A DNA stretch of 64,000 bases from Branchiostoma floridae (taxonomy: Eukaryota; Chordata; Leptocardii; Amphioxiformes; Branchiostomatidae): contig NC_049994.1 of the NCBI RefSeq assembly GCF_000003815.2, forward strand, positions 3,151,464-3,215,463. Reading direction: 5' to 3'. The notes beneath the pieces were generated by a model. The model ran no database searches, was not told where the DNA came from, and was given only the letters and a program-made list of their open reading frames with translations. This document shows positions 2,784-62,610 of the stretch, piece after piece; position 1 is the stretch's first letter; every line of letters starts with the position of its first letter. The position numbers were made by a program, and so were the translations under genes.

Positions 2784-3252
2784 GGCCACAGCAAGTAATT
2801 TTTTTTCTTCTGCAGGGATGGTCAACCTGACGATAAAGTACCAAAATGAGCAAGTACATTGTGTTGCAGCCTAATAATTGCACTTGTAGAAGTGACACTT
2901 GCGAGGAACCAAGGACTGTAGTTGTAGAAATTAAACTTATTGGATAGTTGTAAAAGTGACACAAATGTGGAAGCCGTGAGTGTGGTTACCAACTTTGTTG
3001 GTGATGACTTTTACCACACCAGTAACGTTACATGTCTTGAATACAGGAATGAATGCCTTGTAGGCTCTGATACCATGTTTTGTCCCTCTTATTCTTTTTA
3101 CAACAGTCATAACAACTTTATGGTGCATATTTTTGAAAATGTAGCTATCTTGTTTTTTTCACCCATCTTGTTTTTTTTTGTTTTTTTCGCCCTATCGCAC
3201 TATTTTTGCAGTCTACAGAGGATGCCATCCATAAAATTTACTTGCTGTGGCC
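2784..3252. mobile_element. PIF/Harbinger-type MITE, family 2, copy 1
   Basis: A 469-bp element with inverted termini GGCCACAGCAAGTAA, flanked by TTA on both sides (2781-2783, 3253-3255). A second copy with the same ends and a TAA duplication is at 58992-59517. It is non-autonomous, with no transposase domain seen. Confidence 0.8.
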
Positions 3253-3639
3253 TTAGCTCTGGTAATATCTGCCTGGGCCAGGTCATTGAGGAAATGTAGG
3301 AATATCCAATTATTTGTAGGTTTTGCTACATCACAATTCGTAGCACCTCCTGGTTATTTTCTTATTGATTAGTAGATTTCAGCGCCTTCAAAAATTTGAT
3401 AAAGCTGTTTAATAATAGACCCTCCAATTTTCACTACCCACCTGTGAATTCTATGAACCTGTCGACAGCTGTTCAATCTACCCAGCACCCCCCTAAATTT
3501 GCGACTTATTTTTTTATACAAATGAAAATTTTGAATTAAAAACATAATTAATACTATACATAATAATCCTAATAGTAATAGATTATATTTCTGGCAACTT
3601 CTATCTTTGTTTTCATGAATGTGTAATGAAATTGTGTAA

Positions 3640-7186: not shown

Positions 7187-7820
7187 GTACCAACTTGAGT
7201 TGTTTTTCATGCCCTTTCCTGTGCGCTGGAGGAATTTGAATTTTATACATTCAACTTTGAAGCCAGCATGTTTGCTTTGCTCTCAAATAACCTCTGAACT
7301 GCCTGAGCACCATACTGTAAATGTATGTTCATCAATCATCCTGTCTTACTCAGTCACCTTTAGCTAATGCCCTGCAATGAGTGAGGAATCATGTTTTTGT
7401 AACATAGAAAATTGGAAACATGTTGAACGTAGTGCCTACATGTATATATAGAACCTTCAGCCAGTTCAGGGTTAAGATATCGTGCTTTTTTTTTTTTTTT
7501 AAAGTAAAAGGAAAATTAATGATTTTTGGACCAGCCCTGGTACCGTAGATCATTAAATTGCAGTGGTACACCAATGAAAACCCCCTTTTCCCTCCGCCTA
7601 TAATATATTAAGTTGAACCTGCTGAAAGTATTTAGTCTACACTACAGGACATATCTTTAATCTCTCTGATAAAATACACAAGTCGGAAGTGATTTGTGCC
7701 TACGATAACTGGCTTATGGCAACCCAGGGGGCTTGTCTAACCCATTGTGTCTCTCAGCTGCATTGTCTGTCTGAAAACAAGTTTATCTAGTGGTAGGTGT
7801 ACCCAGACATAATATAATAA

Positions 7821-8178
7821 GGCCACACCAATTTAATTTCTTGGTTCACGGATTTTTTCATAAAAAATATGGAGCGAGAGGGCGAAAAAAAAAAAAATGT
7901 AAAATGGTTGGGGTAAAGGTAACGGCTAATCCAAAACATAAAGAAAAAAAGTTTTCAGCTTGAAAAAAGTACAAAAACACTATTTTTGTACATTAACAGC
8001 ACCTGTACCCATAGTTTAAGGAGCTTATAATATAAAGGCCAATTTGCTACACCAGAAAGTTGGTGAATGGTTTCATTAATGGTGAAAATTTGCTGAGTAG
8101 TAATTTTTATTTTTATTTTTTTTTCCAAAAAATGGGAGCGAGCGAATCCGTGAACCAAGAAATTAAATCGGTGTGGCC
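7821..8178. mobile_element. PIF/Harbinger-type MITE, family 1, copy 2
   Basis: A 358-bp copy of the 2061-2425 element in the opposite orientation, with GGCCACACCAATTTAATT ends and a TAA duplication (7818-7820, 8179-8181). A poly-A run inside differs in length from copy 1. Confidence 0.85.
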
Positions 8179-8568
8179 TAAGGTCATGAGGTCATGTGAA
8201 AAACTTTTTGACCTGGGCTGTCTAAGTGGTTAAACTTCAAGTATTTTCCATTGCACTCTTTGTGTATGGAGACCATATTGTCGATAAAAATTCATTTGTA
8301 CTTTTCAGCTTACAAAAATACATTTTTAAAATCAATCCCATGTTATTAAATGATGACGTTTTTCCCGAAACTACAGCCTGCATATATTTTTTATGTAGTT
8401 ACTGTAGATGCCTGTAAGTTCACAGTTATCTAATTTGTTTTTGCAATGGTAAAATTCAAGGGATTAGGTAAATTCAAGGCATTGCTATATATAGTTACTG
8501 TAACATACTGCACTGTATTGGAAACACCTTTTTTTAAGTTCTACTGGTAGCTATGTATAGGCTAATTA

Positions 8569-11501: not shown

Positions 11502-11687
11502 GTGCTGTTCTAGAAAAGAAGTAACTGAGCAATGCAGACATTGGTGTTCCATCTAGGACACCTCCCTTCAACCTAAGGCTGACATTTCTACTATCAAGTC
11601 AAGTTCAAGACCTGCCACCCTTTGAAAGTTTGAAGAAGCTAGTGCAAGATCTCATTGTATAAACGAAATAAGCTGAAAGAAAACAAG
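11502..11687 (+). other. Probable 5' UTR part of the galactosyltransferase exon
   Basis: It lies between the acceptor and the first in-frame ATG. The in-frame triplets upstream (from TTG at 11655) have no ATG, so translation most likely starts at 11688. Confidence 0.45.
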
Positions 11688-13100
11688 ATGAAGACTATAG
11701 TAAAGTTTCAGGTTCTCATTGCCTTCTGTTTGGTTGGCACCGTCTTCATTTTTTCTTACCTTCATCCGGAGATTTATAACTTCAGGAGGACAAACTCCAG
11801 TCCCGCGCCCTCCAAACGTAGCCAGACCGTACAGGACGTGCTACATTCTGTACAGGGCGCAGACTTGGTTAACAACACCCGCGGCGAAGCCGCCGCGATC
11901 GTAGAAGCGAGCCAAAAGACACCGTTGGATAACCCCTACAACGAGTCCGTTCCCGTCGCGCCAGGCGAAGAAAAGGGTACGGAAGAAAACGATCCCGCGA
12001 AAAACGAGGTGTTGCAGAAGGAGGATATTGAGCCACCAGCCGAGGAAAAGAAAACTGAAACGAAAGAGCAGGAGAAAGAAGAAGACAAGAAGGAAGAAAT
12101 AAAGAAGGAAGAAGAAAAGAAAGAAGAAGAAAAAGAACAAGAAAAGCAGGAAGAGCCTCCTAAGGAAGAACCTAAAGAGGAACCAAAGGAACCTGAAGAA
12201 AAGATTGAAGAGAAGAAGCCAGATATTCCCGAACCTAAGAAATCCATAAAGTCAGAGCTAGACCTAAACACGGAGGTTGAATCTGGATCGCACAGAAACC
12301 CACACCCCTACAAGTTGACAATGAACCATCCCGACAAGTGTGCGGACCAGGACGTTTTTCTCATCGTGATCATCAGCACCATCCACAAGAACGTAGAGAA
12401 CCGGCGAGCAATCCGCGAAACGTGGGGCAGCGAGAATAGCGCTCCCGGATTTGTCGTCAAGCGCCTCTTCGCCCTCGGTAAGACCAGCGACCCCAAGATG
12501 CAAGCTTTGGTACAAAAAGAAAACGAACAGTTCGGCGACATTATACAAGAAGATTTCGTCGACACCTACCACAACTTGACGCTTAAAACCGTCATGTGCC
12601 TCCGATGGGTCTCAAACTACTGCGCCCACTCCAAATTCTTCATGAAAACCGACGACGACATGTACGTGAGCTTTGCGAACCTTGCAAAGGTGCTACAGGC
12701 CCTTCCTACTGAGAAAGCTCGCCGGATGGCCATGGGGTATGTGATATCAGGAGCACCAATCCGCAACCCCAAATCTAAGTGGTACATGCCGAAGGAAACG
12801 TATCCGGGTAACAAGTACCCGCCCTTCTGTTCGGGAACCGGATACATCGTGTCTACGGACATTTGCGGAGAGCTGTATCGGACATCCTTAGATATGCAAT
12901 ACCTTTATCTAGAAGACGTCTTTGTAGCAACGTGCTTTGAGAAAATCGGTGTGGTGCCACAGGGACATAAGGACTTCCATAACTGGAGGGTGGGGTATAA
13001 TTATTGTACATATAAGAGGATACTGACAGCACATATGGTGACGCCACCAGAGATGATTAGGATATGGAAGGATCAGAAGGCTCACAATAGGAGATGTTAG
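11688..13100 (+). CDS. B3GALT: Beta-1,3-galactosyltransferase (GT31), B3GALT1/2/5-like, single coding exon
   Basis: A 470-residue type II Golgi protein. A short cytosolic tail precedes one membrane anchor (about residues 7-25, FQVLIAFCLVGTVFIFSYL). A stem of about 95 residues extremely rich in Glu, Lys and Pro follows (about 92-186). The catalytic domain runs from about residue 215 to the end. GT31 marks are all visible: RRAIRETWG, DFVDTYHNLTLKT, the metal/UDP-binding DDD at 322-324 (KTDDDMYV), KWYMPKETYP, YPPFCSGTGYI and the acidic EDVFVATC at 409. The protein ends in Cys (NRRC), as B3GALT1 does. The family transfers galactose from UDP-Gal in a beta-1,3 linkage to GlcNAc-type acceptors; the acceptor here is unknown. 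The intronless coding region is normal for B3GALT genes, but the long E/K stem is not. A B3GNT-type activity is the main alternative. Confidence 0.93.
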   Translation: MKTIVKFQVLIAFCLVGTVFIFSYLHPEIYNFRRTNSSPAPSKRSQTVQDVLHSVQGADLVNNTRGEAAAIVEASQKTPLDNPYNESVPVAPGEEKGTEENDPAKNEVLQKEDIEPPAEEKKTETKEQEKEEDKKEEIKKEEEKKEEEKEQEKQEEPPKEEPKEEPKEPEEKIEEKKPDIPEPKKSIKSELDLNTEVESGSHRNPHPYKLTMNHPDKCADQDVFLIVIISTIHKNVENRRAIRETWGSENSAPGFVVKRLFALGKTSDPKMQALVQKENEQFGDIIQEDFVDTYHNLTLKTVMCLRWVSNYCAHSKFFMKTDDDMYVSFANLAKVLQALPTEKARRMAMGYVISGAPIRNPKSKWYMPKETYPGNKYPPFCSGTGYIVSTDICGELYRTSLDMQYLYLEDVFVATCFEKIGVVPQGHKDFHNWRVGYNYCTYKRILTAHMVTPPEMIRIWKDQKAHNRRC

Positions 13101-25400: not shown

Positions 25401-27221
25401 TTTTTTTTATTTTTTCCTTTTTTTTTTTTTTTTTTTTTTTTTAATTTTTATTCTCTCTTTTTATCCTCTTTCCCTCCTTTTTTTACCCCCTCNNNNNNNN
25501 NNNNNNNNNNNNNNNNNNNNNNNNNNNNNNNNNNNNNNNNNNNNNNNNNNNNNNNNNNNNNNNNNNNNNNNNNNNNNNNNNNNNNNNNNNNNNNNNNNNN
25601 NNNNNNNNNNACAGCGGCATACAAACAACAGTCTAATAGCAGAGTATCTGACAGGGTGCTGAAATGCTTTCCGTTGTAAGGAAAATGTTCTAAAAAGGGA
25701 TATTTTTGTCACATTTTAAGTCTGACACTACTACAAGTAGTACAGACTAATAAGCTGCGTTATTTTGGTATCATGAAGATGGTTACCACATAAAAAAAAA
25801 ACCATGGCATGCATTTCAAGATATACAGTTAGTAAAATAGAGATTTGATACATACATGATGTCTTCACACATAAATGAACAGTCATCCTTCTGGTAACAA
25901 TACACAATGTTACCCGTGAACTTCAGAACAGGGAGGTCTGAAACAAGTGTTGTTTTCTGTTGATCTCTTCGTTTTTTCTTCGAGTCAGTATGATCCTGTA
26001 TAAATGGGCATTATGAAAAATATTATCAGTAAATATTACTGTATTGATGCTACACTGTCAAGGCCAATAAAAATTTCCAAAATGAATGTGTAAAAGTACA
26101 CGTACAATTAAAAATTTGTAGTTTTGCACATTGATATAACAATTTTATCACCAATGACATGGGTATAAATAAAGTTAAATGATTTATTATTGATTATGGT
26201 TCCCAAACTAATCTCAAATAGATAGCTACTATGAGTACCCTACTAGTAGTAGTAGTAGTGTAGAGTAGAGCAGAGCAGAGAGTAGCATAGAGTAGTGTAG
26301 CATAGCGTGGCGTAGAGTAGAGGAAAGTAGAGGAGAGGAGAGCAGAGCAGAGGAGAGTAGAATACAATAGAGCAAGGACGTTTTAGCGTCCTTGAGTAGA
26401 GCAGAGTTGAGTTACGAGTAGCTCGAGTATACATAGACAGAGTAGGGTAGAGTATAGTAGAGTATAGTAGAGTAGTAGAGACTAGAGTAGAGTAGAGTAG
26501 TAGAGTAGAGTAGAGTAGAGTAGAGTAGAGTAGAGTAGAGTAGAGTAGAGTAGAGTAGAGTAGAGTAGAGTAGAGTAGAGTATAGTAGAGTAGTAGAGAC
26601 TAGAGTAGAGTAGAGTAGTAGAGTAGAGTAGAGTAGAGTAGAGTAGAGTAGAGTAGAGTAGAGTAGAGTAGAGTAGAGTAGAGTAGAGTAGAGTAGAGAC
26701 TAGAGTAGAGTAGAGTAGAGTAGAGTAGTAGAGTAGAGTAGAGTATAGTAGAGTAGTAGAGACTAGAGTAGAGTAGTAGAGTAGAGTAGAGTAGAGTAGA
26801 GTAGAGTAGAGTAGAGTAGAGTAGAGTAGAGTAGAGTAGAGAAGAGTAGAGTAGAGTAGAGTTACTAAGAGTAGAGTAGAGTAGAGTAGAGTAGTAGAGT
26901 AGAGTAGAGTAGAGTAGAGTAGAGTAGAGTAGAGTAGAGTAGAGTAGAGTAGAGTAGAGTAGAGGAGACTAGACGAGAGTAGAGTAGAACTTACTAGAAC
27001 TTAGAAGAGAGTAGAGCAGCTGAGTGCAGTTGAGTACAGTACTAGTAGATTAGAGTACAATTTACAAAATGATGTACTTTCCGACTTGGAAAGGTAGGAA
27101 TCTTAACCTTGTCTAAAACGACGTTTTTCATCCATTCTGGTAACCTTCTCTTCTGCTTTGTAGCCTTTCCACAGTCCCAATTACCGCTAGTGTCGAGTTG
27201 TTTTTCGTCTGCCTCCGCCAT
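22438..27221 (-). CDS. WRNexo: Werner-type DEDDy 3'-5' exonuclease (helicase-free), seven exons
   Basis: Minus-strand exons: 27221-27108, 25995-25856, 25064-24910, 24537-24468, 23834-23708, 23257-23156 and 22503-22438. All borders are GT/AG in phase, giving about 257 residues. The N-terminus has LPEWM, as in WRN. The exonuclease fold follows: [15 protein letters not shown], Exo I FDIEW (Asp100, Glu102), [23 protein letters not shown] (Asp161), WSLDNLCKY, and Exo III YAAADAY (Tyr230, Asp234). These are the DEDDy metal ligands, so it should trim 3' DNA ends. Translation stops 21 codons into the last exon, with no RecQ helicase downstream, like fly and plant WRN-exonuclease proteins rather than vertebrate WRN. 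The ATG sits in an aaaATGGCGG YY1-type context. The first intron holds a TAGAG satellite, and the next holds the assembly gap. Confidence 0.93.
22740..22880. mobile_element. Degenerate hAT-type MITE relative
   Basis: ctactctccaagcagaggtt at the left pairs imperfectly with aacctttgcttagagggtgg at the right. It resembles the TAATCTCCAAGCAG family. No clean duplication. Confidence 0.45.
23936..23998. repeat. (GGAT)n microsatellite, imperfect
   Basis: Run of gatg/gacg tetranucleotides in a WRNexo intron (between exons 5 and 4). A second short (GGAT)n is at about 25231-25250. Confidence 0.9.
24010..24220 (+). mobile_element. tRNA-derived SINE fragment in a WRNexo intron
   Basis: Contains gtctgattccgttgaaatgc, then cttgagaaactagcactt and cctcactttactcaggtg, the tail found in the other SINE copies. 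Confidence 0.45.
25227..25492. repeat. (GGAT)n followed by T-rich low-complexity tract up to the gap
   Basis: About 240 bases of nearly pure T with scattered A, G and C run into the gap. Sequence quality here is suspect, and the Phe-rich ORF across it is an artefact. Confidence 0.85.
25493..25610. other. Assembly gap (118 Ns)
   Basis: Unknown bases in the WRNexo intron between exons 2 and 3. No exon is missing, because the phases on either side agree. Confidence 0.99.
26250..27050. repeat. TAGAG pentanucleotide satellite
   Basis: About 800 bases of (GAGTA)n with variant units (gagca, gagga, tag insertions). Larger blocks are repeated within it: a tagtagagactagagtag block recurs at about 26470, 26590 and 26755. 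It lies in the first WRNexo intron, about 60 bases from the exon 1 donor. A 22-base palindrome (CAAGGACG...CGTCCTTG) interrupts it at 26373-26394. Confidence 0.95.
26373..26394. repeat. Micro-palindrome CAAGGACG-CGTCCTTG
   Basis: A perfect 8-bp stem around a TTTTAG loop, placed inside the TAGAG satellite, where it is foreign. Similar to 44146-44176. Confidence 0.7.
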
Positions 27222-29560: not shown

Positions 29561-31530
29561 ACACAAGGGTTGTATAAATGTGCGACTGTTGGAATTGTTG
29601 GTTTAATTTCCCTGGTCAATTCCACAAGCACACAATAAGTGAGGTTTTATATAGAGACGGTTTGTCGATTTGACCTATGATGCTTGACCATAAGCCCTGT
29701 AAATTGACTAGTGTTACACATATACAGAGTTGTTGGTTTGTTATTGTCATGTTACATTGCTACATCGGCGCTTTAAATGTGTTTTTTTTTTAAATATGCA
29801 TTTCACTTATTGTAATAAAATACAACCCAGTCTTTTTTCTGAAGAGTGGTTTGTTTTCAATCACAACCCCCCTTCTCTCTCTCTCTCTCTCTCTCTCTAA
29901 CGTTATCTGACTGTCCCTCAGTCTCCAAACATCAAAGGAGCATAGTTTTCGAATGGTATGTATACTAATCGAAACAATATACTATAGTTACTAATCCAAT
30001 GTTTCGGTGTCTTTTAGAAACGTTGGAAGTGAGTAACGTTCGTTACGCATACTATCTCGTTTTGTCAGTGAAGAACCTTATCAATACTTAATATTTCACC
30101 ATGAGTGTTATATTATAAGCGTTTGAAAATTTCTGTCTCGGCAACTCTCGTCCCCAGAAGACTTTCGGTAAGTCCAGTTGTCTTTTTTACCGTCATAAAA
30201 AAAAAAGATCACTGAGTGAACAATGCCCACGAGAAAATGTACAAGTACAGGAGGTTTTACGGGATCCGGAGTACCAAGGTCACACTACCAAGGTCAATTG
30301 TATAGATGACCTTGACCTTAGTATTCATAACACCTACCAAGACACCAAATATCATCACAATCTCTTTTATTCTTTCATTCCTATCATCAAGACTTTATGA
30401 CTAAAGTTAATGACTACATGAACATTATGTGTGTCAGCTTTCCTTGTGTCAATGAATGTCAAATTTGTATTATGCTACCTCCCATACCACCTCTTGGCCC
30501 CTCCGCCCGTGGTGGTGTGGTCCAAATGACCAACTCCGCATTATCGCACACGCCGGATAATTGCACGAAATTCGCTGGCAAATCAGGTGTGCAATTAAGC
30601 GGCTTCCACTGTACCTATATGCAATCCGTAGCCAACTAGCATAGCCCAAATTTTCCGGAAACCCTATTCCGATAACAGTTGTCTAACCAGTGCAGTGCAC
30701 GTGCATTCAACTGTGACTGACTCGCAACGTGACGTATGGCTGGGGTCTGATTTCCTTATGTTCAAAGTTCATAGTTCAAACAGATCAGCTGTTTGGTGGT
30801 GGTCAGACTGCATGGTTAGTACGAACAACAAGAACTCGCTCCGGGTTTCAACTGTGCTGCTGAGTTTACTTGAATATTCAAGAGAAAGAGTAACATCAAG
30901 GTATGTCAAAGTACAGCGGTAGATTCTAGTTTTGCTATAAGGTCGACTAGCTTGCTCGAAGTTGTTTTGCAATTTTCAAATGAAGAAGGCCTCGGTGTAT
31001 TAGCTACGCGTAATCGTGTCATGGTCGGTTTCAAACACGTTTTCACCCACGTTGTAAATTTCATTGAATTCGGAAGAAATATTCTTATTCTTCGTCTAGT
31101 TTGCTGAGTGTTTATGACTTTAACTGAGACCACGCCTAAACCTAAAATGTTGATTATAGCTTGGTAGAAAAACCGGGTTAACGACATATTTCTGGTCTAA
31201 ATGGTATTTCTTAACGTAGCGTGTCTTGACAACAAAAGCATTGGGGGTGTATATGTGCTTTCTATCACTGTAATAATAGTGTCGTTTCTGTAGTATATAG
31301 GGCTAATAACTACTAGTAATAGCCCTGAATCTACCTAACTGCTCTTTCTTGAAGCCCTTTCTTGAAGCCCTTTCTTGAAGATTTCTCACGACTCATAATG
31401 ACATTGCGTAACTACTGCCACGCCCCCACCGAACCCCCCACTTACCTGTTGTTTTTGTCGCAGACGTTGTTTTTTGTCAATAATTAAAGGCAGAGAATGT
31501 AGGTCATAGGGAACACGAACAGTCGTGGGG
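29561..31530. other. Intergenic DNA with a (CT)n tract
   Basis: (CT)n at about 29874-29898. A short stretch near 30275-30325 has inverted aaggtca/tgacctt words, resembling nuclear-receptor half sites. No exon recognised. Confidence 0.4.
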
Positions 31531-31539
31531 TCATGTTGG

Positions 31540-31700
31540 GTAATTATAACAGCGGGGTTTTTGACCCATAGGGCCTGGGTTCAAGGACGTAGATATGCCG
31601 CTAACATTGTACTTACTTACTTACTTGGGCCCTTTGTTCCGGGCGGAACATAGGACTTAACAGGACTTTCCTCACTTTTACACAGGTGAAATTTGAGGTC
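31540..31700 (+). mobile_element. tRNA-derived SINE fragment
   Basis: cctgggttcaagga, a B-box relic, is followed by ggactttcctcacttttaca and caggtgaaat, the common SINE tail. Confidence 0.4.
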
Positions 31701-31991
31701 ACGTGTTTAGAGAGAGCCACAACTCAAACACATAAAAGAACCCACCCGTGGCACTTCTCGAAAAGAGTAGGGGTCATTCCCGTTGTGATTTGTCAATTAA
31801 ATCTGTCCGAATATGCAGCTTGTACTCGTCTATACAAGCTTGGTGTGTTACGCCTTGAGGCGGTTTACCGGATATGCAAGAAAGCACAAACAATACAGAC
31901 ACTTTTGCCCTAAGTTTTGTAACCTAACCGTGACCTTAACCCTGTAAACACGTCTCTTCTATATTGCGTTTTACTCGCAGAGAATTGGGAG

Positions 31992-32998
31992 GGTCTTTTT
32001 AGCGAATGCCCACAAACGCCCACTCTAGAGAAGTCCGCGCTGCACGAATCTAATTTTTTTTGCTTGGAATATGTCCACGTTGTGCTCCCATGTATTAATC
32101 CTGAGTTTCAAGTCAATCCATTGACCCGAAGTGACATAAATAAAAGTTTTCGATTCTCGATGGTCTTTTTAGCGAACGCCCACAAAATGTCTTTTTAGCG
32201 AATGCCCACTATATCCACAAAAATATCGGCCGTCGCGCAACGACACCTAAACCTACCGCCACAAACATGTTCAAGATGGTGTCCCATTGATGTGTACGGA
32301 GTTTCCGTGCTTTACAAGCATTTTAAGTCCCTGTTTTTGGTCAAAATGTACGCGCCGATACTACCATACATTAACAATAGCAATTCAAAATGGCGGGCAC
32401 TAGTCATGTGACCTCCTTGCGGGACTGTTCTATAAGTATCGCGGGAGGGACTGTTGTAGCATAGCTAATCATACAAACATTTTAGAGTGAATTCTGAACA
32501 TGATTTTCATTTCATAGTGCTATCATCTGACTGATATTTACATTGTGGTCCTTTTTTCTGTGCTATTATTACCCAGGTTTGAGGAACTTAGTGCAAATAT
32601 GGATATTGATTCACCTCAGTGCCCATTTAATGTACAAAAGGCTCAGACACATTAGTGTTATAAACCTGACTAGGGGCAGGTAACCAATACTAGAAAAACA
32701 TAGCTATTTATTATTAAATTAACAATACTATTTACATTATAATAATAACTCTTCACCAAACTGGACTTTTCTTATCTTTATTTATCACAGAAACATTGTT
32801 ACAATGAGGATTTGATTAGATGAGTATCTGTTACAGTGTGCACAAACTTATTAAATACAAAAATGTATTTCATTTCACTCCCTAAATATTTTTAAAGTAT
32901 TGGAAGAAGTTGACATATAAACAATATTAATTGCATTATTTGTGTGCAGTAAAATGTGACCACATGCTATCAATAGCCTAATAAAATGTTGGAACATG
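31992..32998 (+). repeat. Left terminal inverted repeat of the foldback element
   Basis: Matches 38467-39454 in reverse complement, with a few substitutions and a roughly 18-bp indel near 32865. The outermost 220 bases contain three copies of tctttttagcgaaYgccc (31993, 32163, 32190). A YY1-type aaaatggcggg word is at about 32387. Confidence 0.9.
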
Positions 32999-33059
32999 CA
33001 CAGCACGAAAACGAATATTTAAGCATACTTTCCGAGATACTTAAATGTAGCCTAAAGGT

Positions 33060-33360
33060 GGGAAAATATTTCCGCAGAGTTTACGGTATCGTAAAGACCA
33101 CGGAAACCATGGTTTAACATTTCCGTAACCTTTCCGTATTCGTTAAGGCAGATTAAATACATGTAATATCTTTACATAACCTTTAAGCATCCTTATATGT
33201 GCCGTATATGAAACGGGTATTGCTTACGTACAGAAAACATCTACAGGCTTTGAACCGACCATACGTTCACATACAATCAGTTGACCTTCGCCTTTTTTTT
33301 ATTTTCGTGGTTCTCTAAGGTGGAAATTACCAATAGGACATTTACATACTCTTATTAGTA
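33060..33360. repeat. Palindrome-rich ttccgt/acggaaa segment inside the foldback
   Basis: Words such as accacggaaaccatggtt and catttccgtaacctttccgt occur in both orientations, and similar words recur at 36460-36870. Looks like degenerate array or subterminal sequence. Confidence 0.4.
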
Positions 33361-33387
33361 TAGGTCTATGGAGACCTCCCCCTTTTA

Positions 33388-35270
33388 TGTATAGGTGCAA
33401 AAAAAGATGTCAGAATGGTAGCGTTTATTTTTAAGAAGAGGCATTGCTTTTACCAAATTAAGAGTATTTTCCGCTCAATATACCACATGCGCCGTTCACT
33501 AAAGCAGCGGCTTCAAATGAATAGCTCCTGCTGTGGTTGCGTGTTAAGTTTAACCAAGAAAAGTAAATATCCTGTGTGAAAGCTACATATAACAGATACA
33601 ATCTTTCCGGTGTCTTTCCGTTACATTTGAGCTGACTTAACATAAAAGGGGGGAGGTTTAAGCAAACCTCCCCCCTTTTATGTATAGGTGGAAAAAAGAT
33701 GTCGGAAAGGTAGCGTTAATCATTACTTGAAGAAGAGGCATTGCTTTTACCAAATTAAGAGTATTTTCCGCTCAATATACCACATGCGCCGTCCACTAAA
33801 GCAGCAGCTTCAAATGAATAGCTCTTGCTGTGTGTTAGCGTGTTGAGTTTAACAAAGAAAGGCAAATCTCGTCCTGTGTGAAAGCTACATATAAAAGATA
33901 CAATCTTTCCGATGTCTTTCCGTTACATTTGAGCTGACTTTACATAAAAGGGGGGAGGTTTAAGCAAACCTCCCCCTTTTATGTATGGGTGGAAAAAAGA
34001 TGTCGGAAAGGTAGCGTTAATCATTACTTGAAGAAGAGGCATTACTTTTACCAAATTAAGAGTATTTTCCGCTCAATATGCCACATGCGCCGTCCACTAA
34101 AGCAGCGGCTTCAAATGAATAGCTCCTGCTGTGTTTGCGTGTTAAGTTTAATCAAGAAAAGAAAATCTCGTCCTGTGTGAAAGCTACATATAACAGATAC
34201 AATCTTTCCGATGTCTTTCCGTTACATTTGAGCTGACTTTACATAAAAGGGGGGAGGTTTAAGCAAACATCCCCCCTTTTATGTATAGGTGGAAAAAAGA
34301 TGTCGGAAAGGTAGCGTTAATCATTACTTGAAGAAGAGGAATTACTTTTACCAAATTAAGAGTATTTTCCGCTCAATATGCCACATGCGCCGTCCACTAA
34401 AGCAGCGGCTTCAAATGAATAGCTCTTGCTGTGTTAGCGTGTTGAGTTTAACAAAGAAAAGAGTTTAATTAACAAAGAAAAGCAAATCTCGTCCTGTGTG
34501 AAAGCTACATATAAAAGATACAATCTTTCCGATGTCTTTCCGTTACATTTGAGCTGACTTTACATAAAGGGGGGAGGTTTAAGCAAACCTCCCCCCTTTT
34601 ATGTATAGGTGGAAAAAATATGTCGGAAAGGTAGCGTTAATCATTATTTGAAGAAGAGGTATTTTTTTCCGCTCAATATACCACATGCGCCCTCACTAAC
34701 GCAGCGGCTTCGCCTGAATAGCCCCTGCTGTGTTAACGTGTTGAGTTTAACAAAGATAAGCAACATTTACTCTTGGTTAAAACTTACATATAGCAGATAC
34801 AATTTTTGGAATGTATAGGTGCAAAAAAGATGTCGGAAAGGTAGCGTTAATTATTATTCTTAAAAAAAAAATGCTTTTACCAAATTACGAGTATTTTCCG
34901 CTCAATATACCACATGCGCCGTTCACTAAAGTAGCGACTTCGCCTGAATAACTTATTCTGTGTTAGCGTGTTTGACGAAACCAGGAAAATCAAAATACCC
35001 TCATGGGTGAAACATAAATATAACATATGGTATCTTTCCAATGTCTTTACGTTACCATTGAGCTCACTTTACACAAAATGATGCTATGTACAGGTGCAAG
35101 AAAGATGTCGGAAAGGTAGCGTTTATTTTTTCCAGTAGTATTGTATGTTACCGATATCGTTCCGTTACCTTTGCCTTTGAGCTTACTGTTCAGAAAACTC
35201 TCTGAACTTTCTTTACAGAGGTGGATATCGATAGTTACAGAAAAAGATGTTGGAGAGGTAGCGTTGAAAG
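33388..35270 (+). repeat. Tandem array of about 300-bp units, seven copies
   Basis: Units start at the word atgtataggtg near 33388, 33680, 33981, 34281, 34601, 34811 and 35094. They share gatgtcggaaaggtagcgtt, cgctcaatataccacatgcg and ctttccgatgtctttccgtt. The junctions at about 33647, 33948, 34249 and 34567 form perfect or near-perfect hairpins (GGGGGGAGGTTT / AAACCTCCCCCC). The last units are more diverged. Confidence 0.9.
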
Positions 35271-35279
35271 CGAGGAAAT

Positions 35280-36470
35280 TAAATATTTAACCTCCTTGTT
35301 GAAAGGAAACAACAGTCGCCGGGAGCACTGCGTACATGCCCCCGAAGATTGGTGGTCATAATTACGGCGTGTTCCCGTTCAGGGTAAGAGGACTAGTACT
35401 GGGCGGCCTGTCCAGTATGTCGCTCGCGGGTGGCTGTGCCTTGCAGCTTGGAATCCCGACGACATAGCGTCCTCACTACCCGGTAACGTATCATGGGAAT
35501 AAAGCGGGTTTGCTGTTTATATAATTGTACAAAAAAACTTTCTTATCATCTGGAAGAACATTTATTATCTACAAGCAATAATCACGTTCTCCCAGAAAGG
35601 CTGGTATTTTCTAGTGTGGTAACAGCTGTGTTTAGCTTAACCTTGGCTAAACAGCGTACAAAGGGGATGGTGTTTTTCAAATTCAAATGTATTCGCCGTC
35701 AACTATGAATAACGAACAACGCGGCATTGAATTTCTAATTAGCAGCTCCCAGAAGAGGCCAGTCATGTGATAGGGCGTTATCCAATGACAGACAAAGGTG
35801 GGTTTTTTAAACCTAACGAATATGCCATAATTTATAGAAGAAACCAGTTTGCAGGGCGTCTGTTTCGGGACAAGTCAAGAAGGAGCCTTGGACCCGTTTC
35901 AACACACGGATTATCGGCGTGGCTTTGCCGCAAATGGATTCCAACGGAACTACAGGACGGAACGGACATAACCATAGGACACTCACGGCTTGCAGGAAAC
36001 GGAGTACGTATGTTGGAGAGTCTTCAACGGGGCACAACTCAGGGTGAATTCAAGACTGTGTCGTCTTGACCAGCATAAGCTGGCGGAGACATGGAGAGCA
36101 CGGCCTGTTCATCACAAAACAGTACCCGTCTTCGGGAATCTGAGCGGATTTTTCCTAATGTGATGGCCAGATGGAACTATGTTGCTTGAAATGACGTCGT
36201 TCCAGGCGTATCGCCCGACACTGGACTCCAAATTGTGGACTTAAATGTAGCGGAGATTCGTGCATGGGTATTGTACACCGATTGTTCCCTCGGTCGACCA
36301 ATCCAAGTCCACAATTAGAATCACAAGATAGTTTAGACGGCGAAGCCATAGATACCGGTGTAGGTATGATTCACACCAAATAAGACACGCATACCCGATG
36401 CAAAAGTTCCAATTTAAGCCACACAAAACACATAAAGCCTACCTAAAGATGCGGAAAGGTTTAAACTTAC
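35280..36470. other. Unique cargo segment of the foldback element
   Basis: Higher GC and no repetition. Two modest open frames are seen (+, 35493-35708, 71 aa; + about 35785-36069, about 95 aa). Neither resembles a transposase or any domain I recognise. It could be captured host DNA or a decayed transposase. Confidence 0.35.
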
Positions 36471-36898
36471 ACCGCCTTTACTAAAAATAAATGACAACTA
36501 TAGTCCAAGGAAAGATCACGGAAAGCGTTCGGATAAGTACGTTTCTGCACTTCTTCACGTGCCTTTCAGGGTGTGTAAACGACACATAAACGTGGGGAAA
36601 TCGTGACGGAAATCGACCGTAAATGTGGTCAAAAGATCACGGAAAGGTCTTAAGAAACGCGTGCTTTCCGCCCGTATAGGTTACGAAAAACTGTCATTAA
36701 CGACGCCTTTAAGCGTCTAATAGTTGCGGAAAGGCACGTGAAGGAGTGCCGAAACGCACTTTTAAGTGCCAACGTAAAGGTAACATTAAAGGGAACCTTT
36801 ACGTTCACGGATAGATGTCGTTAAGTTGCGGAAAGAGTGCAGAAACGTCGCGTTTACGTTGAGTTTAAGCTTGCTTAAATATCAGATTTCGTGCTGTG

Positions 36899-38469
36899 AT
36901 GGCACAAGCGGGCTCCTCTTCTGAGTAGAGAAAGGAAATGTTTTATAACATTTACTAGTAGTTATTACGTAGAATATTTCAACTGTAAAATGTACCTTTA
37001 TTAACATTTACAAACAAATTGTCTTTTCTCTTCTTAATAAATGACAACAATACAGGTAAGTAAGGTGTGTTTCCTTTGATTACGACTAGGTAAGACACCG
37101 TACAGGTGAGTAACGTGTATTTCCTTTGAGTACAGACCAGGTAAGACACCATACAGGTGAGTAACGTGTATTTCCTTTCATTACAGACCAGGTCAGACAC
37201 CGCACAGGTGAGTAAGTTGTGTTTCCTTTGCCTATATACCATATAGGCCATTATACAGGTGAGTAAGGCGTCTTTCCTTTGCCTACAGACCAGATAGGGT
37301 ATTATGCAGGTGAGTAAAGCAACCTTCCTTTGCCTATAGACCAGATAGGGTATTACACAGGTAAGTTAGGTGTCTTTCCTTCGCCTATATACCAGATGGG
37401 GCATTATACAGGTGAGTAAGGTGTATTTCCTTTGCCTATAGACCAGATAGGCCATTATACAGGTAAGTAAGATGTCTTTCCTTTGCCTATAGACCAGATA
37501 GGGTATAATACAGGTGACTGAGATGAGTAAAGCAACTTTCCTTTGCCTATATACTACCATATAGGCCATTATACAGGTCCGGAGTAAGGCGTCTTTCCTT
37601 TGCCTATAGACCAGATAGGGTATTATGCAGGTGAGTAAAGCAACCTTCCTTTGCCTATAGACCAGATAGGGTATTACACAGGTAAGTTAGGTGTCTTTCC
37701 TTCGCCTATATACCAGATGGGGCATTATACAGGTGAGTAAGGTGTATTTCCTTTGCCTATAGACCAGATAGGCCATTATACAGGTAAGTAAGATGTCTTT
37801 CCTTTGCCTATAGACCAGATAGGGTATAATACAGGTGACTGAGATGAGTAAAGCAACTTTCCTTTGCCTATATACTACCATATAGGCCATTATACAGGTC
37901 CGGAGTAAGGCGTCTTTCCTTTGCCTATAGACCAGATAGGTATTATACAGGTGAGTAAAGCAACTTACTTACCTGTATAATGTCTTATCTGGTCTGTCAT
38001 CAAAAGAAATACACGTTACTCACCTGTACGGTGTCTTACCTGGTCTGTAGTCAAGGAAACACAACTTACTCACCTGTACGGTGTCTTACCTGGTCTGTAA
38101 TCAAAGGAAATACACGTAACTCACCTGTACGGTGTCTTACCTGGTCTGTAATGAAAGGAAATACACGTTACTCACCTGTAAGGTGTCTTACCTAGTCTGT
38201 AGTCAAGGAAACACACCTTACTCACCTGTACGGTGTCTTACCTGGTCTGCTATAAAAGGAAACACACCTTACTTACCTGTACGGCGTCTTACCTGGCCCG
38301 TTATAAAAGGAAATACACTTTACTTACCTGTATTGTTGTCATTTATTAAGAAGAGAAAAAAACAATTTGTTTGTAAATGTTAATTTTACAATTGAAATTT
38401 TCTACGTCATAACTAAATGTTATAAAACATTTCCTTTCTGTACCCAGAAGAGGAGCCCGCTTGTGCCAT
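36899..38469. repeat. Nested foldback of about 57-bp tandem repeats
   Basis: Outer arms atggcacaagcgggctcctc (36899) and its complement (ending 38469) are inverted. Between them run units with tttcctttgcctatagacca and ttatacaggtgagtaagg. They are plus-oriented up to about 37970 and inverted from there to 38340. A block of about 321 bp is duplicated exactly or nearly so (37240-37560 and 37561-37881). Confidence 0.9.
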
Positions 38470-39454
38470 GTTCCAACATTTTATTAGGCTATTGATAGCA
38501 TGTGGTCACATTTTACTGCACACAAATAATGCAATTAATATTGTTTATGTGTCAACTTCTTCCAATACTTTAAAAATATTTAGGGAGTGAAAGTATTTAA
38601 TAAGTTTGTGCACACTGTAACAGATACTCATCTAATCAAATCCTCATTGTAACAATGTTTCTGTGATAAATAAAGATAAGAAAAGTCCAGTTTGGTGAAG
38701 AGTTATTGTTATAATGTAAATAGTATTGTTAATAATAAATAGCTATGTTTTTCTAGTATTGGTTACCTGCCCCTAGTCAGGTTTATAACACTAATGTGTC
38801 TGAGCCTTTTGTACATTAATTGGGCACTGAGGTGAATCAATATCCATATTTGCACTAAGTTCCTCAAACCTGGGTAATAATAGCACAGAAAAAAGGACCA
38901 CAATGTAAATATCAGTCAGATGATAGCACTATGAAATGAAAATCATGTTCAGAATTCACTCTAAAATGTTTGTATGATTAGCTATGCTACAACAGTCCCT
39001 CCCGCGATACGTATAGAACAGTCCCGCAAGGAGGTCACATGACTAGTGCCCGCCATTTTGAATTGCTATTGTTAATGTATGGTAGTATCGGCGCGTACAT
39101 TTTGACCAAAAACAGGGACTTAAAATGCTTGTAAAGCACGGAAACTCCGTACACATCAATGGGACACCATCTTGAACATGTTTGTGACGGTAGGTTTAGG
39201 TGTCGTTGCGCGACGGCCGATATTTTTGTGGATATAGTGGGCATTCGCTAAAAAGACATTTTGTGGGCGTTCGCTAAAAAGACCATCGAGAATCGAAAAC
39301 TTTTATTTATGTCACTTCGGGTCAATGGATTGACTTGAAACTCAGGATTAATACATGGGAGCACAACGTGGACATATTCCAAGCAAAAAAAATTAGATTC
39401 GTGCAGCGCGGACTTCTCTAGAGTGGGCGTTTGTGGGCATTCGCTAAAAAGACC
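38467..39454 (-). repeat. Right terminal inverted repeat of the foldback element
   Basis: Reverse complement of 31992-32998. The three subterminal gggcRttcgctaaaaagac words are at about 39239, 39266 and 39435. Confidence 0.9.
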
Positions 39455-39469
39455 ATGCGCAGAGAATTG

Positions 39470-40435
39470 AAATTTCGGCCGCGTAGCAGCTCGTTTGCAT
39501 TTTAGCCATTGTAGCCGCAAGATAAACGAAAATGCTGTGTCATCGTGATTTTACTAATTCTTAAATAAAAGGTGGAAGGTGGGACGGCGCATATCAAACA
39601 AATCTCTAGTTAATTGTTCGATGCAACGTCTACTTTTATAAGTTTTCGCCGGTTGCTCCGAAGTGTCCAAGGGCTTTAATAGGCTGAAGAACACGAGACC
39701 AAGAGGTCACGGGTTCGATTCTAGGTTACGTAATTTAAATTTAGTTGGATGTTGTGTTTTATTGAAAAGGTACTTTTACCATGCCGTAAGCACAGTAGAT
39801 CAGTAATAATCCACTGCCCCTACGGCCTAAATTAACGTTTAAGCTTAAACTTTTACTTCAAATGTTTAGTCCAGAAACCTACATATACTAAAAGATATTG
39901 CGTCTACACGTGCGAGCGTCACCACCCCCAAACATGCCAGTATAATCTTCGTCAAGATTGTGGGCATCAACGGGAAGAAGAAGATCTTTAACATCGAGGC
40001 CATTTCATGGATATCTTGAAGACTTGGATGTGTAGAGTACGCCGTCCTCTGAGATTACTGGACGGTTAACGCCTCCACTGAGTCTCCAGTCACGGAATTT
40101 GAGTTTTCAGACGTGCCACGTTTTGCGGACTTTAAAACACTGGTTCGAAAGCTCACTGTGTGTAGTTGGGAATCTTTGAATGTTGAAATGTTTTCTGAAA
40201 ATACGATTGAAGTCTTGCGTCATGAAAACATGTTATTGTGGCTTGTTTACCTCCACGTATGTCATGCATGCCATATCTGGGGCACACCAAGAGTAGTTGT
40301 CCACGGATTACGTAATCATGTCCCAGTTTAAGCATACGTCACCGTGCCTGTATCCACATGATATCCCACGTGGGGCCATTTAATCCCCAATATGCAAAAT
40401 AGTGTTGGCCTTTTCATGACCCCTGATCTCGACCC
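39470..40435. other. Intergenic DNA with a possible SINE head
   Basis: A B-box-like cacgggttcgattcta lies at about 39707-39722, with weak tRNA-like sequence upstream of it. Otherwise nothing recognised. Confidence 0.35.
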
Positions 40436-41647: not shown

Positions 41648-42184
41648 GTTAATAAAAGTTTTCATCGATCAGTGACTTATCAAAGGTAAGCAAACATACC
41701 TCCAAATTTTCGATGACTGTCAGTCCATCATGTTCACGGAGTAACCTAGTTCTCGCGAGAGTTGCGAGAACTAGGTCGAGACTTGCGTTGATCTTCTGCC
41801 CCTCACCCCCGCCTCCTTGCGAAGTAGAGGTAAGTAAGACTTGGGCAGCTCCCATCCATCGTTCCGGTTCAGTTTTGCTCCTTCCAATTGAATGTGTACT
41901 GCTTCTTTAACCTTCCGATGTGCATTGCGTGGTTCTTGGTCAATGATCATAATATTGTCAGAGATGGGTTTGATGGATGGGAGCTGCCCAAGTCTTACTT
42001 ACCTCTACTTCGCAAGGAGGCGGGGGTGAGGGGCAGAAGATCAACGCAAGTCTCGACCTAGTTCTCGCAACTCTCGCGAGAACTAGGTTACTCCGTGAAC
42101 ATGATGGACTGACAGTCATCGAAAATTTGGAGGTATGTTTGCTTACCTTTGATAAGTCACTGATCGATGAAAACTTTTATTAAC
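41648..42184. repeat. Perfect 213-bp inverted repeat with 111-bp spacer, upstream of BHMT
   Basis: Arms 41648-41860 and 41972-42184 are exact reverse complements wherever I compared them. Each arm holds a smaller hairpin (cctagttctcgc / gcgagaactagg) containing TCTCGCGAGA, a word known as a vertebrate promoter motif. Each also has a 68-codon open frame starting MGAAQVLLTSTSQ. In the right arm the frame runs on the plus strand to a possible donor (GAG followed by gtatgt, 42132/42133) in phase with the BHMT exon at 42511. The segment could be a promoter/first-exon region duplicated in inverted orientation, or a transposon. Confidence 0.9.
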
Positions 42185-47253: not shown

Positions 47254-47949
47254 CAGAGCTGTAAATTGTTAAGTTATAGATCACGTTATGTTTATTTCAT
47301 TTGAAATGTTGTCATTTTTGGCCAAGTCCCTATAATTGTCGATGGGCTGAGATAAATGTTCACGTATACGTGGTTTGTTTTCGACAAAATAAGATGGAGA
47401 ATAATACGCACAGTGAATATTAACAACATATCGTCAGAAGAGAATAACTGACTTATACTGAAACAATCTTATATATCATGGTGATGAAAAAAGTTAAGGA
47501 ATATTTTCTGTAACTTCTTTATGTGGGTGGTATTAAAATACCTTCGAAATGATTGTGACATTCGTCTTTTTTCACTTGCTATCATTTAAATGAGCTCGAG
47601 GTGCAGGATTTTAATAACGCATGCGCAGCGAAACGTATTGTGGGTAATATGAAGTACCGCCATCTTGTCAAGAGTTTATGTATGAACTTTGAACCATTGT
47701 CTCTATTTGCATAACAACGTCCAGACGCTTTTTGTATTTCTTATGGGTCTTCACCTTTGACATATTACCCACAATTCATTCCGCTGCACATGCTCAGTTT
47801 ATGTGGCGAGCCTCATTATTGTAGCTCTATGCTGAATTTGTGTTCTGAAAATGATTTTAAGAAAACGAATTGAAGCCTATATCTAATTCATCCGTATTCT
47901 AAAGAAGATATTGGATACAACAAAGTTTACCCATTTTCTATGCAATATA
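47254..47949. other. Intergenic DNA with inverted acccacaat words
   Basis: tattgtgggtaatatgaagt (about 47636) and catattacccacaattcatt (about 47759) are inverted to each other and resemble words at 13625 and 14255. A possible short foldback, with ends undefined. It includes a ccgccatcttg (YY1-type) word. Confidence 0.4.
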
Positions 47950-48537
47950 CGAGGGGCGTTCAATAAGTAATAACTCTGACTCATTTCCCATAGCAGGAGA
48001 TGAATGAAACTTGGCACAGTTATTAGTCTTTCTCTTCATAGGAACCACCCAGAGTTATGCATTTCTCACATTGTTTGATGCAGCTCTGGACACCGTTTTT
48101 GTAGGATACTCCAGGTTGGTCCTCCAACAGATGCCTCATCAATGGCAGAAGAGGAACGACCAGGTCTGGGAGCTGTTTCCACAGACTTCCAGCCATGTTT
48201 GAATTCAGGATGCCAGCGTTTTACAAGGTCATATTATGGGACATCATCACCATAAGTTTCTTTCATTTCATCAAAAGTCTCCTTTGGTGTGCGTCCTTTC
48301 AAATACAAAAACCGGATGAAAAAAACTGCGCGACACTCAACTGGCTCCATTTCACACCTTGTCCATTTCACACCTAACTCAGTTCAAACACCAGTGAATC
48401 AGAAACCACAATTTTAGAGTTTAGAGTTCTCTTTTTCAACATAAACTATAAAGATATGAATCATTACACATGCAAAATTTCATCTAGATCAAACAACTGG
48501 AAGTGGGTCAGAGTTATTACTTATTGAACGCCCCTCG
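47950..48537 (-). mobile_element. Internally deleted mariner element, copy 1
   Basis: Inverted ends CGAGGGGCGTTCAATAAGTA, flanked by TA. The minus strand carries relics of a mariner transposase, with the N-terminal helix-turn-helix part and the C-terminal tail joined by a deletion. Its frame is broken here. A second copy at 59869-60445 has the same deletion. Confidence 0.85.
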
Positions 48538-48565
48538 TATGTATAACGTTACAGTATCTGTAAAG

Positions 48566-58980: not shown

Positions 58981-58991
58981 ATTCTGCATAA

Positions 58992-59517
58992 GGCCACAGC
59001 AAGTAAATTTTATGGATGACATCCTCTGCAGACTGCAAAAATAGTGCGATAGGGCGAAAAAAAAACAAGATTGGTACAAAAAAAACAAGATGGGTACATT
59101 TTCAAAATAAGCACCATGACCATTGTAACAAGAATTAAAGAGACAAAATATGGTATCACAGCCAACTGAACATTCATCTATGTATTCAAGATATGTGCTG
59201 GTGTAGTAAAAGTGACACAAGTGTGGTAGACTGGCATCACTAACAAAGCTGCTAACTACACTCATGGCTTCCGTATTGGTGTCACTTTTACAACTATTCA
59301 ACTACTTTCACTTCTACAACTTATTACAGTCCTGGGTACCTCACAATTTTCCCTGTTACAAGTAATTATTGGGCTACAATACAATATATTTGCTTATTGT
59401 GGTAATTTTTCATCATGTTGACCATCTCCAAAGAGAAAAAAAATCTTTTTTTTTCTGAAATCAGGCGAAAATTAATGAGCGCGCGGATGTCATCCATAAA
59501 ATTTACTTGCTGTGGCC
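58992..59517. mobile_element. PIF/Harbinger-type MITE, family 2, copy 2
   Basis: A 526-bp element with GGCCACAGCAAGTAAATT ends, flanked by TAA (58989-58991, 59518-59520). The interior is related to 2784-3252. Confidence 0.85.
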
Positions 59518-59803: not shown

Positions 59804-60485
59804 GACATTACATACCTGAAACGTCTGGACATTTCTTAAATCATATCCAGCTACTTGGGTAATTGCTACGAGGGGCGTTCAATAAGTAATGTCCCTGACC
59901 CATTTCCCATAGCAGGAGAATGATGAAATTTGGCACAGTTATTAGTCTTTCTTTTCACAGGAACCAGCCAGAGTTATGCATTTCTCCCATCGTTTGATGC
60001 AGCCCTGAACACCGTTTTTGTAGGACACCCCAGGTTTTTCCTCCAACAGATACCTCATCAATGGCAGAAGAGGGACGACCAATCTGGGAGCTGTTCCCAC
60101 AGACTGCCGGCCATCTTTGAATTCACGATGCCAGCGTTTTACAAGGTCATATATTGGGGCATCATCACCATAAGTTTCCTTCATTTCATCAAAAGCCTCC
60201 TTTGGTGTGCGTCCTTTCCAATACAAAAACCGGATCACTGCGCGACACTCAACTGGCTCTATTTCACACCTGGTCCATTTCACATCTGACTCAGTTCAAA
60301 CACCAGTAAATCAGAAACCAAAACAAGTTCAGAGCTGTTTTTTGCAACATAAACTATAGAGATATGAATCATTACACATCCAAAATTTCATATAGATCAG
60401 ACAATTGGAAGTGGGTCAGAGGCATTTTTTATTGAACGCCCCTCGTATTTGGTGTATCTTATTACTTGGATGTCTAACCTTCATT
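59804..60485 (+). mobile_element. Penelope-like repeat fragment split by a mariner
   Basis: gaaacgtctgg and atatccagctacttgggtaa (left) and gtatcttattacttggatgt (right) are the words of the 27649-28005 repeat. The mariner at 59869-60445 sits between them at a TA. Confidence 0.6.
59869..60445 (-). mobile_element. Internally deleted mariner element, copy 2, with 113-aa ORF
   Basis: Inverted ends CGAGGGGCGTTCAATAAGTA with TA on both sides. The minus ORF 60283-59942 has the mariner N-terminal helix-turn-helix region (VECRAVIRFLYWKG, VKRWHREFKDGR), then out-of-family sequence, and ends CIKRWEKCITLAGS like the C-terminus of mariner transposases. The catalytic DDD domain is absent, so it cannot cut DNA, although the DNA-binding part could persist. 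Confidence 0.88.
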
Positions 60486-60619: not shown

Positions 60620-62610
60620 GCCTAGAACAGACATTACCTCCGGTAAAATGGAAAAATCGATGCGTTATGTTTTGTCTCAGTACACAATTTGGGTAGAGGC
60701 ATCTCCGGGATTACCCGCTGGAAGTTGGTATGTGAGCGATTTTCCCGGAACGACACAGCAAAAGATCAAGGAGTCATTGTCAAGGCTAGATTCGTGGGGC
60801 AGCAAGAAATGTTACGAGAATTTGTCCGTCCCTTAGAGTAATCCAAAACGTAATGAAGGAAAATATCGAACGACCAGGCAAAGGATCAAATGTCATTGTC
60901 AAGTGCACGTTGGCGGGGCAGTAAGAAATGTTACGGGAATTTGTTTGTCCCTTAGAATAATCCACAGCGTAATATCAGTTGTGTTAACGGCCTGTGAACA
61001 TTATGGTACATTTGTGATATGTGAACTAATAGCAAGAAAGACCAGGCAAAGGATTAACAGCCATTGTCAAGGCTACATTGACGGAACAGCAAGATATGCT
61101 ACGGGAATGTGTGTGTCCCTTAGTGTAATCCACAACGTAATGCAGAAAATATCAGTTGTATCAAAGGCCTGTGAATACTATAATACTTTTCTGATATGTA
61201 AGCTTTTTTGCCGGAACGACCAGGCAAAGGATCAAATGCCGGGCACCAAAAAATGTTTCAAAAATTCTCACCGTAATGCACAACGTAATATCAGTTGTAT
61301 TATTGACCTGTGAAGACTATGATACATTTCTGATATGAACTACTTACAAGAAGGATCAGGCAAACGACCATGCACCATTGTAAATGGAACATAGATGGGG
61401 CAGCAAGAAAAGTTCTGGGAATTTGTGTATCCCTTATAGTGTAATCCGCAACGTATGCATGCACGAAAATATCAGTTGTATTAACGGTATGTGACTCCTA
61501 ATGCTTATTTGATATGCGAGCTATTTGTCGGAAAGGCCATGCAAAGGATCAACAGCCACTGTCAATGCCACATTGACTGGGCAAAAAGAACTGTTATGGG
61601 AGTTTATGTATCCCTTAGTGCAATCCACGTTGTAATTCAGGAAAATATCAGTTGTATTAACGACATGTGACTTCTAATGTTAGCTATTTGTTAGAACGAC
61701 CAGGTAAAGGATCAACTGCCATCGCCAAGGCCACATCGTGGGACAGCGAGAAATGTTAAGGGAATGTGTGTATCCCTTAGTGTACTCCACAACGTAATGC
61801 AGGTTGATATCAGTTCCATTAAAGTCATGTTACAACTTACATCTTTCTGATAGGTGAGCTATTTGCACGAACGACCAGGCAAAGGATCAACAGCCATTGT
61901 CAAGTTCACATGGACAGGCCAGCAAGACATGTTACGGGAATTTGTGTATCCCTTAGTGTAATCCACAACGTTATGCAGAAAAAAAGATAAGTTCTATCAA
62001 AGTCATGTAACTACTTAATAATACCTTTCTGATATGTGAGCTATTTGCCAGTCAACGACACGGCAAAGGATCAATTGCCATTGTCAAGGCATCATTATCA
62101 GACAACAAGAAATGTTACGGGAATTTGTGTATCTCTTATCGTAATCTACGATAATACAGAAAATATAAGTTCTATCAAAGCCATATAACTACTTATAACG
62201 TGACCTTTCTGATATGTGAGCTATATGTCGGTCAACGACTAGGCAAAGGATCAACAGCCATTGTCAAAGCATCATTATCGGGCAGTAAGAAATGTTACGG
62301 GAATTTGTGTATCTCTTAGTGTTACTCTCAACGTAATGCAGAAGTTCTATCAAAGTCATGTAAGTTCTTATACTTTTCTGTTATGTGAGCAATATGCCGG
62401 CAAACGACTTGGCAAATTAGGAACAGCCATTGTCAAGGCCAAATTGACGTAACAGCAAGGAATTTCCGGGGATTTGTGTATACCTTAGTGTAATCCATAA
62501 CGTAATGCAGGGAAATATCATTTCTATCAAAGTCATGTAACTTCTTACTAGTATACCTTTCTGATATGTGAGCTATTTCCCATCGGAACACAATGGTTAT
62601 AATGGAGATA
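60620..62610 (+). repeat. Degenerate tandem satellite, about 175-190 bp period
   Basis: About ten units share aacgaccaggcaaaggatca, gccattgtcaag, agaaatgttacgggaatttg, tatcccttagtgtaatccac, aacgtaatgcag and ctttctgatatgtgagctat. Divergence is high and units vary in length. The first unit (60648) has an ATG frame that decays within 62 codons. Confidence 0.9.

Follow-up and report, generated by a model that had tools for sequence, protein, structure and literature searches.

A 7.5-kb foldback element in Branchiostoma floridae, probably a non-autonomous DNA transposon, with another foldback lodged in its right arm

Within a stretch of 64,000 nucleotides of Branchiostoma floridae DNA (here called the window), two 1-kb inverted arms enclose tandem arrays, a middle domain and an inner foldback, which raises the question of what kind of element this is and whether all of its parts arrived together. 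The first-pass annotation had treated the locus as one composite, nested design that it could not name. The kind can in fact be named, since passages of published work (PMC4079207, PMC4168063, PMC3169594) already describe foldbacks that combine long TIRs with tandem arrays and harbour other elements. The locus is indeed best read as a foldback transposon flanked by a target-site duplication, but the design is better split in two, with the inner foldback as a likely secondary insertion. Overall, we regard the 7.5-kb element as a new family of a known foldback kind, and as mostly ordinary, its chief point of interest being an array of repeats that resemble splice donors.

Arms, ends and interior of the outer element

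Long inverted arms are a trait of the foldback class, and here they measure 1007 and 988 bp. Global alignment of the left arm with the reverse complement of the right arm (Table 1) gave 983 matches over 988 aligned bases, with 5 substitutions and 2 indels totalling 19 nt, in agreement with their earlier description as nearly identical inverted repeats. The 22-mer GGTCTTTTTAGCGAAYGCCCAC, exact or with one base changed, is present three times in each arm: at the arm tip, then 170 bases inward and then 26 bases beyond (31992, 32162 and 32188 in the left arm). At up to 3 mismatches this 22-mer has 6 matches in the whole window, every one of them in the arms, as compared to an expectation of 0.00 from 100 shuffles. 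We infer that these motifs are candidate transposase-binding sites; a parallel is offered by Galileo, for which a passage of the Tetris paper (PMC4079207) reports transposase-binding sites in the TIR repeats.

A second trait of the class, a target-site duplication, is represented by a direct repeat of 11-12 bp that lies 3-4 bases away from the arms. The 12-bp sequence CGCAGAGAATTG occurs at exactly two places when both strands of the 64-kb window are considered, namely the two flanks of the element. It had been described as bounding the arms and is indeed confined to these flanks, but it does not abut them, as the bases GGAG and ATG intervene. Alternatively, the duplication can be taken as the 11-bp GCAGAGAATTG, which leaves the element with the imperfect ends GGAG and GCAT, matching at 2 of 4 bases. 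When random pairs of 20-nt flanks were drawn from the window, a shared run of at least 12 was found in 9 of 59,542 pairs (60,000 draws, less 458 discarded for N or for nearness). The outermost bases of the 11-12 bp repeat could match by chance.

Table 1. Positions of the outer element, its flanking repeats and the nested foldback within the window
Feature	Position	Strand	Remarks
Direct repeat, left copy	31976..31987	+	12 bp, CGCAGAGAATTG; candidate target-site duplication
Left terminal spacer	31988..31991	+	GGAG, non-inverted; separates direct repeat from arm
Left arm	31992..32998	+	1007 bp; near-identical to right arm
Inner continuation of left arm	32999..33025	+	24/27 identical to 36872-36898; marks homology broken by nested foldback
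Inner left domain	33026..33373	.	CGGAAAG-type motifs, 2 exact, both on - strand
Array of ~300-bp units	33374..34663	+	4.3 copies
Degenerate, shortened array continuation	34664..35260	+	Core AAGATGTCGGAAAGGT at 34827 and 35102; decayed at 35244
Middle domain	35261..36430	.	Repeat-free within the window; longest stop-to-stop frame 108 aa
Inner right domain	36431..36898	.	6 exact CGGAAAG, 5 on + strand; 27-nt arm continuation (36872-36898) at its end
Nested foldback	36899..38469	.	Ends ATGGCACAAG...CTTGTGCCAT; within right arm of host element, last bases overlap arm by shared AT
Left array of 51-bp units	37050..37958	+	Contains recent duplication
Right array of 51-bp units	37964..38332	-	Orientation opposite to left array
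Right arm	38467..39454	-	988 bp
Right terminal spacer	39455..39457	+	ATG, non-inverted; separates arm from direct repeat
Direct repeat, right copy	39458..39469	+	12 bp, CGCAGAGAATTG; candidate target-site duplication

By way of repeats, the outer 1-kb arms hold only the three dispersed 22-mers each, while the 300-bp array lies in the interior on the left side only, and the nested foldback carries 51-bp arrays in both of its arms. The array of about 300-bp units recognized in the first-pass annotation is present, and degenerate core copies extend it to about 35260. Four of its units share pairwise identities of 93-98% with gaps left out, and near-perfect palindromes of about 44 nt surround an AAGC at four unit junctions (33660, 33962, 34261 and 34581), each corresponding to a near-perfect hairpin whose stem is about 20 base pairs long and whose loop is this AAGC. 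The interior is also rich in CGGAAAG, which on both strands occurs 22 times in 32999-36898, including 10 outside of the main array, as compared to 8 times in the 56 kb beyond 31901-39600. Exact copies point to the - strand in the inner left domain (2/2) and mostly to the + strand in the inner right domain (5/6).

That no transposase had been seen in the element is upheld by a Pfam scan in six frames, which yielded no credible match in 31992-38469 (stops read as X and the translations cut into pieces), neither to a P-type nor to a MULE-type transposase, nor to any other family within the middle domain; this span takes in the whole element up to 38470-39454, a stretch that mirrors the left arm. 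Eight weak Pfam matches (E 0.02 to 0.23) were all below cut-offs and mutually unrelated, and we ascribe them to chance. Similarly, 15 weak Rfam matches over 31500-40000 (E up to 0.5), 14 of which fall in the 300-bp array, were all under gathering scores and are rejected, and a tRNA search that used the bacterial code returned none in the window. In the rest of the window, an uninterrupted frame of 485 aa (11643-13100) contains a galactosyltransferase domain (Pfam PF01762, E 1.7e-54) preceded by a Glu/Lys-rich stretch, and reads as a beta-1,3-galactosyltransferase frame; an RT fragment is also present, and the two suggest an animal host.

The window holds several further repeats. A separate foldback of 537 nt (41648-42184), dissimilar to the first, consists of 213-nt arms that are 100% identical and a 111-nt loop. 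A MITE-like element with ends TACGAGGGGCGTTCAATAA, which we presume to be mariner-like, is present in two copies (47948-48540 and 59867-60448; 88.7%), and two pairs of MITE-like repeats with the related ends TAAGGCCACACCAATTTAA and TAAGGCCACAGCAAGTAAA lie at 2058-2428, 7818-8181, 2798-3255 and 58989-59444. There are also an AGTAG pentamer array of about 148 copies with strong GC skew (26248-26988) and an array of diverged units (60748-62576), whose period is about 180 in its better part (61695-62576) and whose self-matches are mostly 68-76%.

The nested foldback and the proposed order of events

The inner foldback reported in the first-pass annotation is real, although its repeat unit is 51 bp rather than about 57 bp. 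The outermost parts of its arms (36899-37100 against 38469-38282) are 84.8% identical (E 2.3e-64), and its left array contains a recent duplication in which 37261-37560 and 37582-37881 are identical at 299 of 300 positions. On its far side the homology to the left arm resumes, such that 32999-33025 matches 36898-36872 at 24 of 27 positions, and for this reason the inner foldback appears to have entered the right arm later. It thus breaks up the right arm, and the approximate empty site can be seen in the left one. The insertion's own duplication is at most 2-3 bp (AT), a reading made ambiguous by the left arm, which is one base longer than the two flanks would be if joined. This want of a clear duplication, together with the occurrence of the inner foldback nowhere else in the window, would suit the alternative that it is an integral domain of the element. 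We consider that unlikely, since the left-arm homology goes on beyond it and since divergence is higher between its arms than between the outer ones.

More diverged arms in the younger insertion than in its host can be accounted for in two ways, by a later homogenisation of the outer arms that reached as far as the break which the nested element makes in their pairing, or by divergence of the nested element beforehand. The substitutions bear on this point. Against the 5/988 of the outer arms, the tract just beyond the nested element has 3/27 (Fisher P 0.0009) and the nested arms outside of the arrays have 6/136 (Fisher P 0.0008), small counts compared by tests that were picked after the alignment was seen. 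This pattern agrees with outer arms that were homogenised as far as the nested insertion, but the 27-base tract is short and its 3 substitutions are few. Divergence of the nested element already at its landing would explain its own arms.

In the order of events that we propose, the nested foldback would have landed in the right arm of its host element, after which gene conversion or template switching between the outer arms may have kept them alike, a process presumably halted at the nested insertion. The arrays probably expanded through slippage or unequal exchange. If so, host element, nested foldback and an arm likeness that ends at the nested insertion can be read in succession from one sequence, which would provide a natural setting in which to test how the arms of foldbacks remain similar.

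A splice-donor-like motif in the 51-bp array

Alignment of the 51-bp array to its consensus, blind to any motif, resolved 26 units, 24 of them full. The least variable of the 51 possible 9-column blocks is CAGGTGAGT (CAGGTRAGT), variable at no base but the third of the intron, which is G or A, and the next separate block of low variability is TTTCCTTTG. We take CAGGTRAGT to be the animal splice-donor consensus. This alignment used 24 of the 26 units and passes over insertions, so its 24/24 overstates the number of intact motifs; the motif is intact in 22 of the 26, of which the left half has 14 (+ strand) and the right half 8 (- strand), each pointing to the centre of the nested foldback. It replaced an earlier alignment that was biased by splitting the units on CAGGT itself, and in which a length filter removed 4 of 24 pieces and re-scoring removed 4 more duplicates, leaving 16.

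Outside of the nested element CAGGTRAGT occurs once in the window, and it was found in 358 of 20,000 random 51-mers from the window, a draw that included the array itself. The looser donor AGGTRAG has 30 sites inside the nested element and 16 outside of it in the window, and for an acceptor-like pattern the corresponding counts are 23 and 67, so that patterns of both sorts are common in the window. All of these array statistics are to be read with the shared descent of tandem units in mind, and with a test that was chosen after the motif was noticed. Of the 24 full units, 17 have a YAG after their pyrimidine tract.

Most units would thereby pair a pyrimidine tract and YAG acceptor with a CAGGTRAGT donor, which raises the conceivable but improbable idea that the nested foldback is a splicing device. 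The two halves point to the centre on opposite strands, and by the same long shot RNA from either side would first come upon a series of acceptor-donor pairs. In 4 of the 26 units the donor motif is broken by insertions of 3 and 12 nt, each of which the duplication has brought to two copies, and this argues against selection on the motif; the 7 of 24 full units that lack YAG are likewise counted against selection. Were the idea true, a host gene could splice round the insertion in either orientation, and the element would be tolerable inside genes; a working array would make this an element carrying splice sites in both orientations. A coding reading of the array on the minus strand (128, 106 and 93 aa) was rejected on the reasoning that a repeat period which is a multiple of 3 is enough to keep frames open.

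Class of the element and comparison with known systems

The 1-kb inverted arms, the 22-mer end motifs, the flanking 11-12 bp repeat, the lack of recognisable coding capacity and the tandem arrays together lead us to read the outer element as a foldback transposon. Most probably it is a non-autonomous class II element of the foldback type whose transposase is supplied in trans and is most likely Mutator-like, although for the Mutator-like mover taken on its own the chances are about even. In this mechanism a transposase made elsewhere would move the element in trans, pairing the arms before cutting; the element would then be joined to staggered target ends, the repair of which would yield the duplication. 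A TIR of more than 100 bp, typical of Mutator elements according to passages of PMC5225508, is present here, but the 11-12 bp duplication exceeds the 8-10 bp which the same source gives for MULEs. Membership in the Mutator superfamily is not established, given this long duplication and with no transposase found. It also counts against our preferred reading that the direct repeat does not abut the arms, that self-BLAST of the 64-kb window revealed no other copies outside of the element, and that no transposase relative was found. The element end patterns had 0 matches in viral and prokaryotic contig collections, a result that is of little weight for animal-type DNA.

The same foldback element could instead be mobilized by a transposase from a different superfamily, be it P/Galileo-like, hAT or so far undescribed, which we hold to be possible though doubtful; as the transposase is the only difference, this overlaps with the preferred reading, and so do the likelihoods assigned to the two. 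Foldback structure leaves the superfamily unfixed, since different transposases reside in such TIRs (passages of PMC3169594), and Galileo is foldback-like yet belongs to the P superfamily by its transposase (passages of PMC4168063). The duplications of Galileo, at 7-8 bp, are however further from the 11-12 bp observed here than are the 8-10 bp of MULEs. It is far less probable that the locus is no transposon but an inverted duplication or an assembly artefact with flanking microhomology. The 3-4 bases that separate the direct repeat from the arms would be in keeping with such an origin, as would the want of a second copy in the window, but 5 substitutions and two indels distinguish the two arms, which are therefore not a simple assembly copy; moreover, the end motifs are repeated within each arm, and the 12-mer is restricted to the two flanks in the window.

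If the foldback transposon reading is true, the element would represent a foldback family that awaits a match among those described. A duplication of 11-12 bp does not appear in the passages on Tetris, Galileo and Tm1, and a literature search for the phrase '12-bp target site duplication' was empty. For the splice-donor-like array alone, the passages on Introners (PMC9860276) offer a comparison, as these are non-autonomous and can carry splice sites; unlike the nested foldback, for which there is no known gene or transcript, they form short families (median lengths 30-654 nt) in genes. Galileo of the P superfamily, as described in passages of PMC4168063, resembles the outer element in its very long TIRs, which are lengthened through tandem repeats and inserted TEs (one copy has direct repeats together with a further TE), and in copies without transposase, but differs in its 7-8 bp duplications and its known transposase. 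Tetris of Drosophila virilis (passages of PMC4079207) has TIRs of up to 1,735 bp with domains, tandem repeats of about 220 bp, a non-coding middle domain and no transposase found; its repeats are in its TIRs, whereas the 300-bp array here is one-sided, and its duplications are 8-10 bp. Tm1, a Mutator/Foldback element of root-knot nematodes that we liken by description and not by sequence (passages of PMC3169594), differs in its duplications of 8-10 bp, mostly 9, and in TIR repeats of about 14 bp, but shares foldback TIRs, non-autonomous members and, in its tables, nested insertions. Indeed, Tm1 carries short asymmetric non-inverted motifs between the TSD and the inverted repeat, the closest match to the GGAG and ATG of the element described here.
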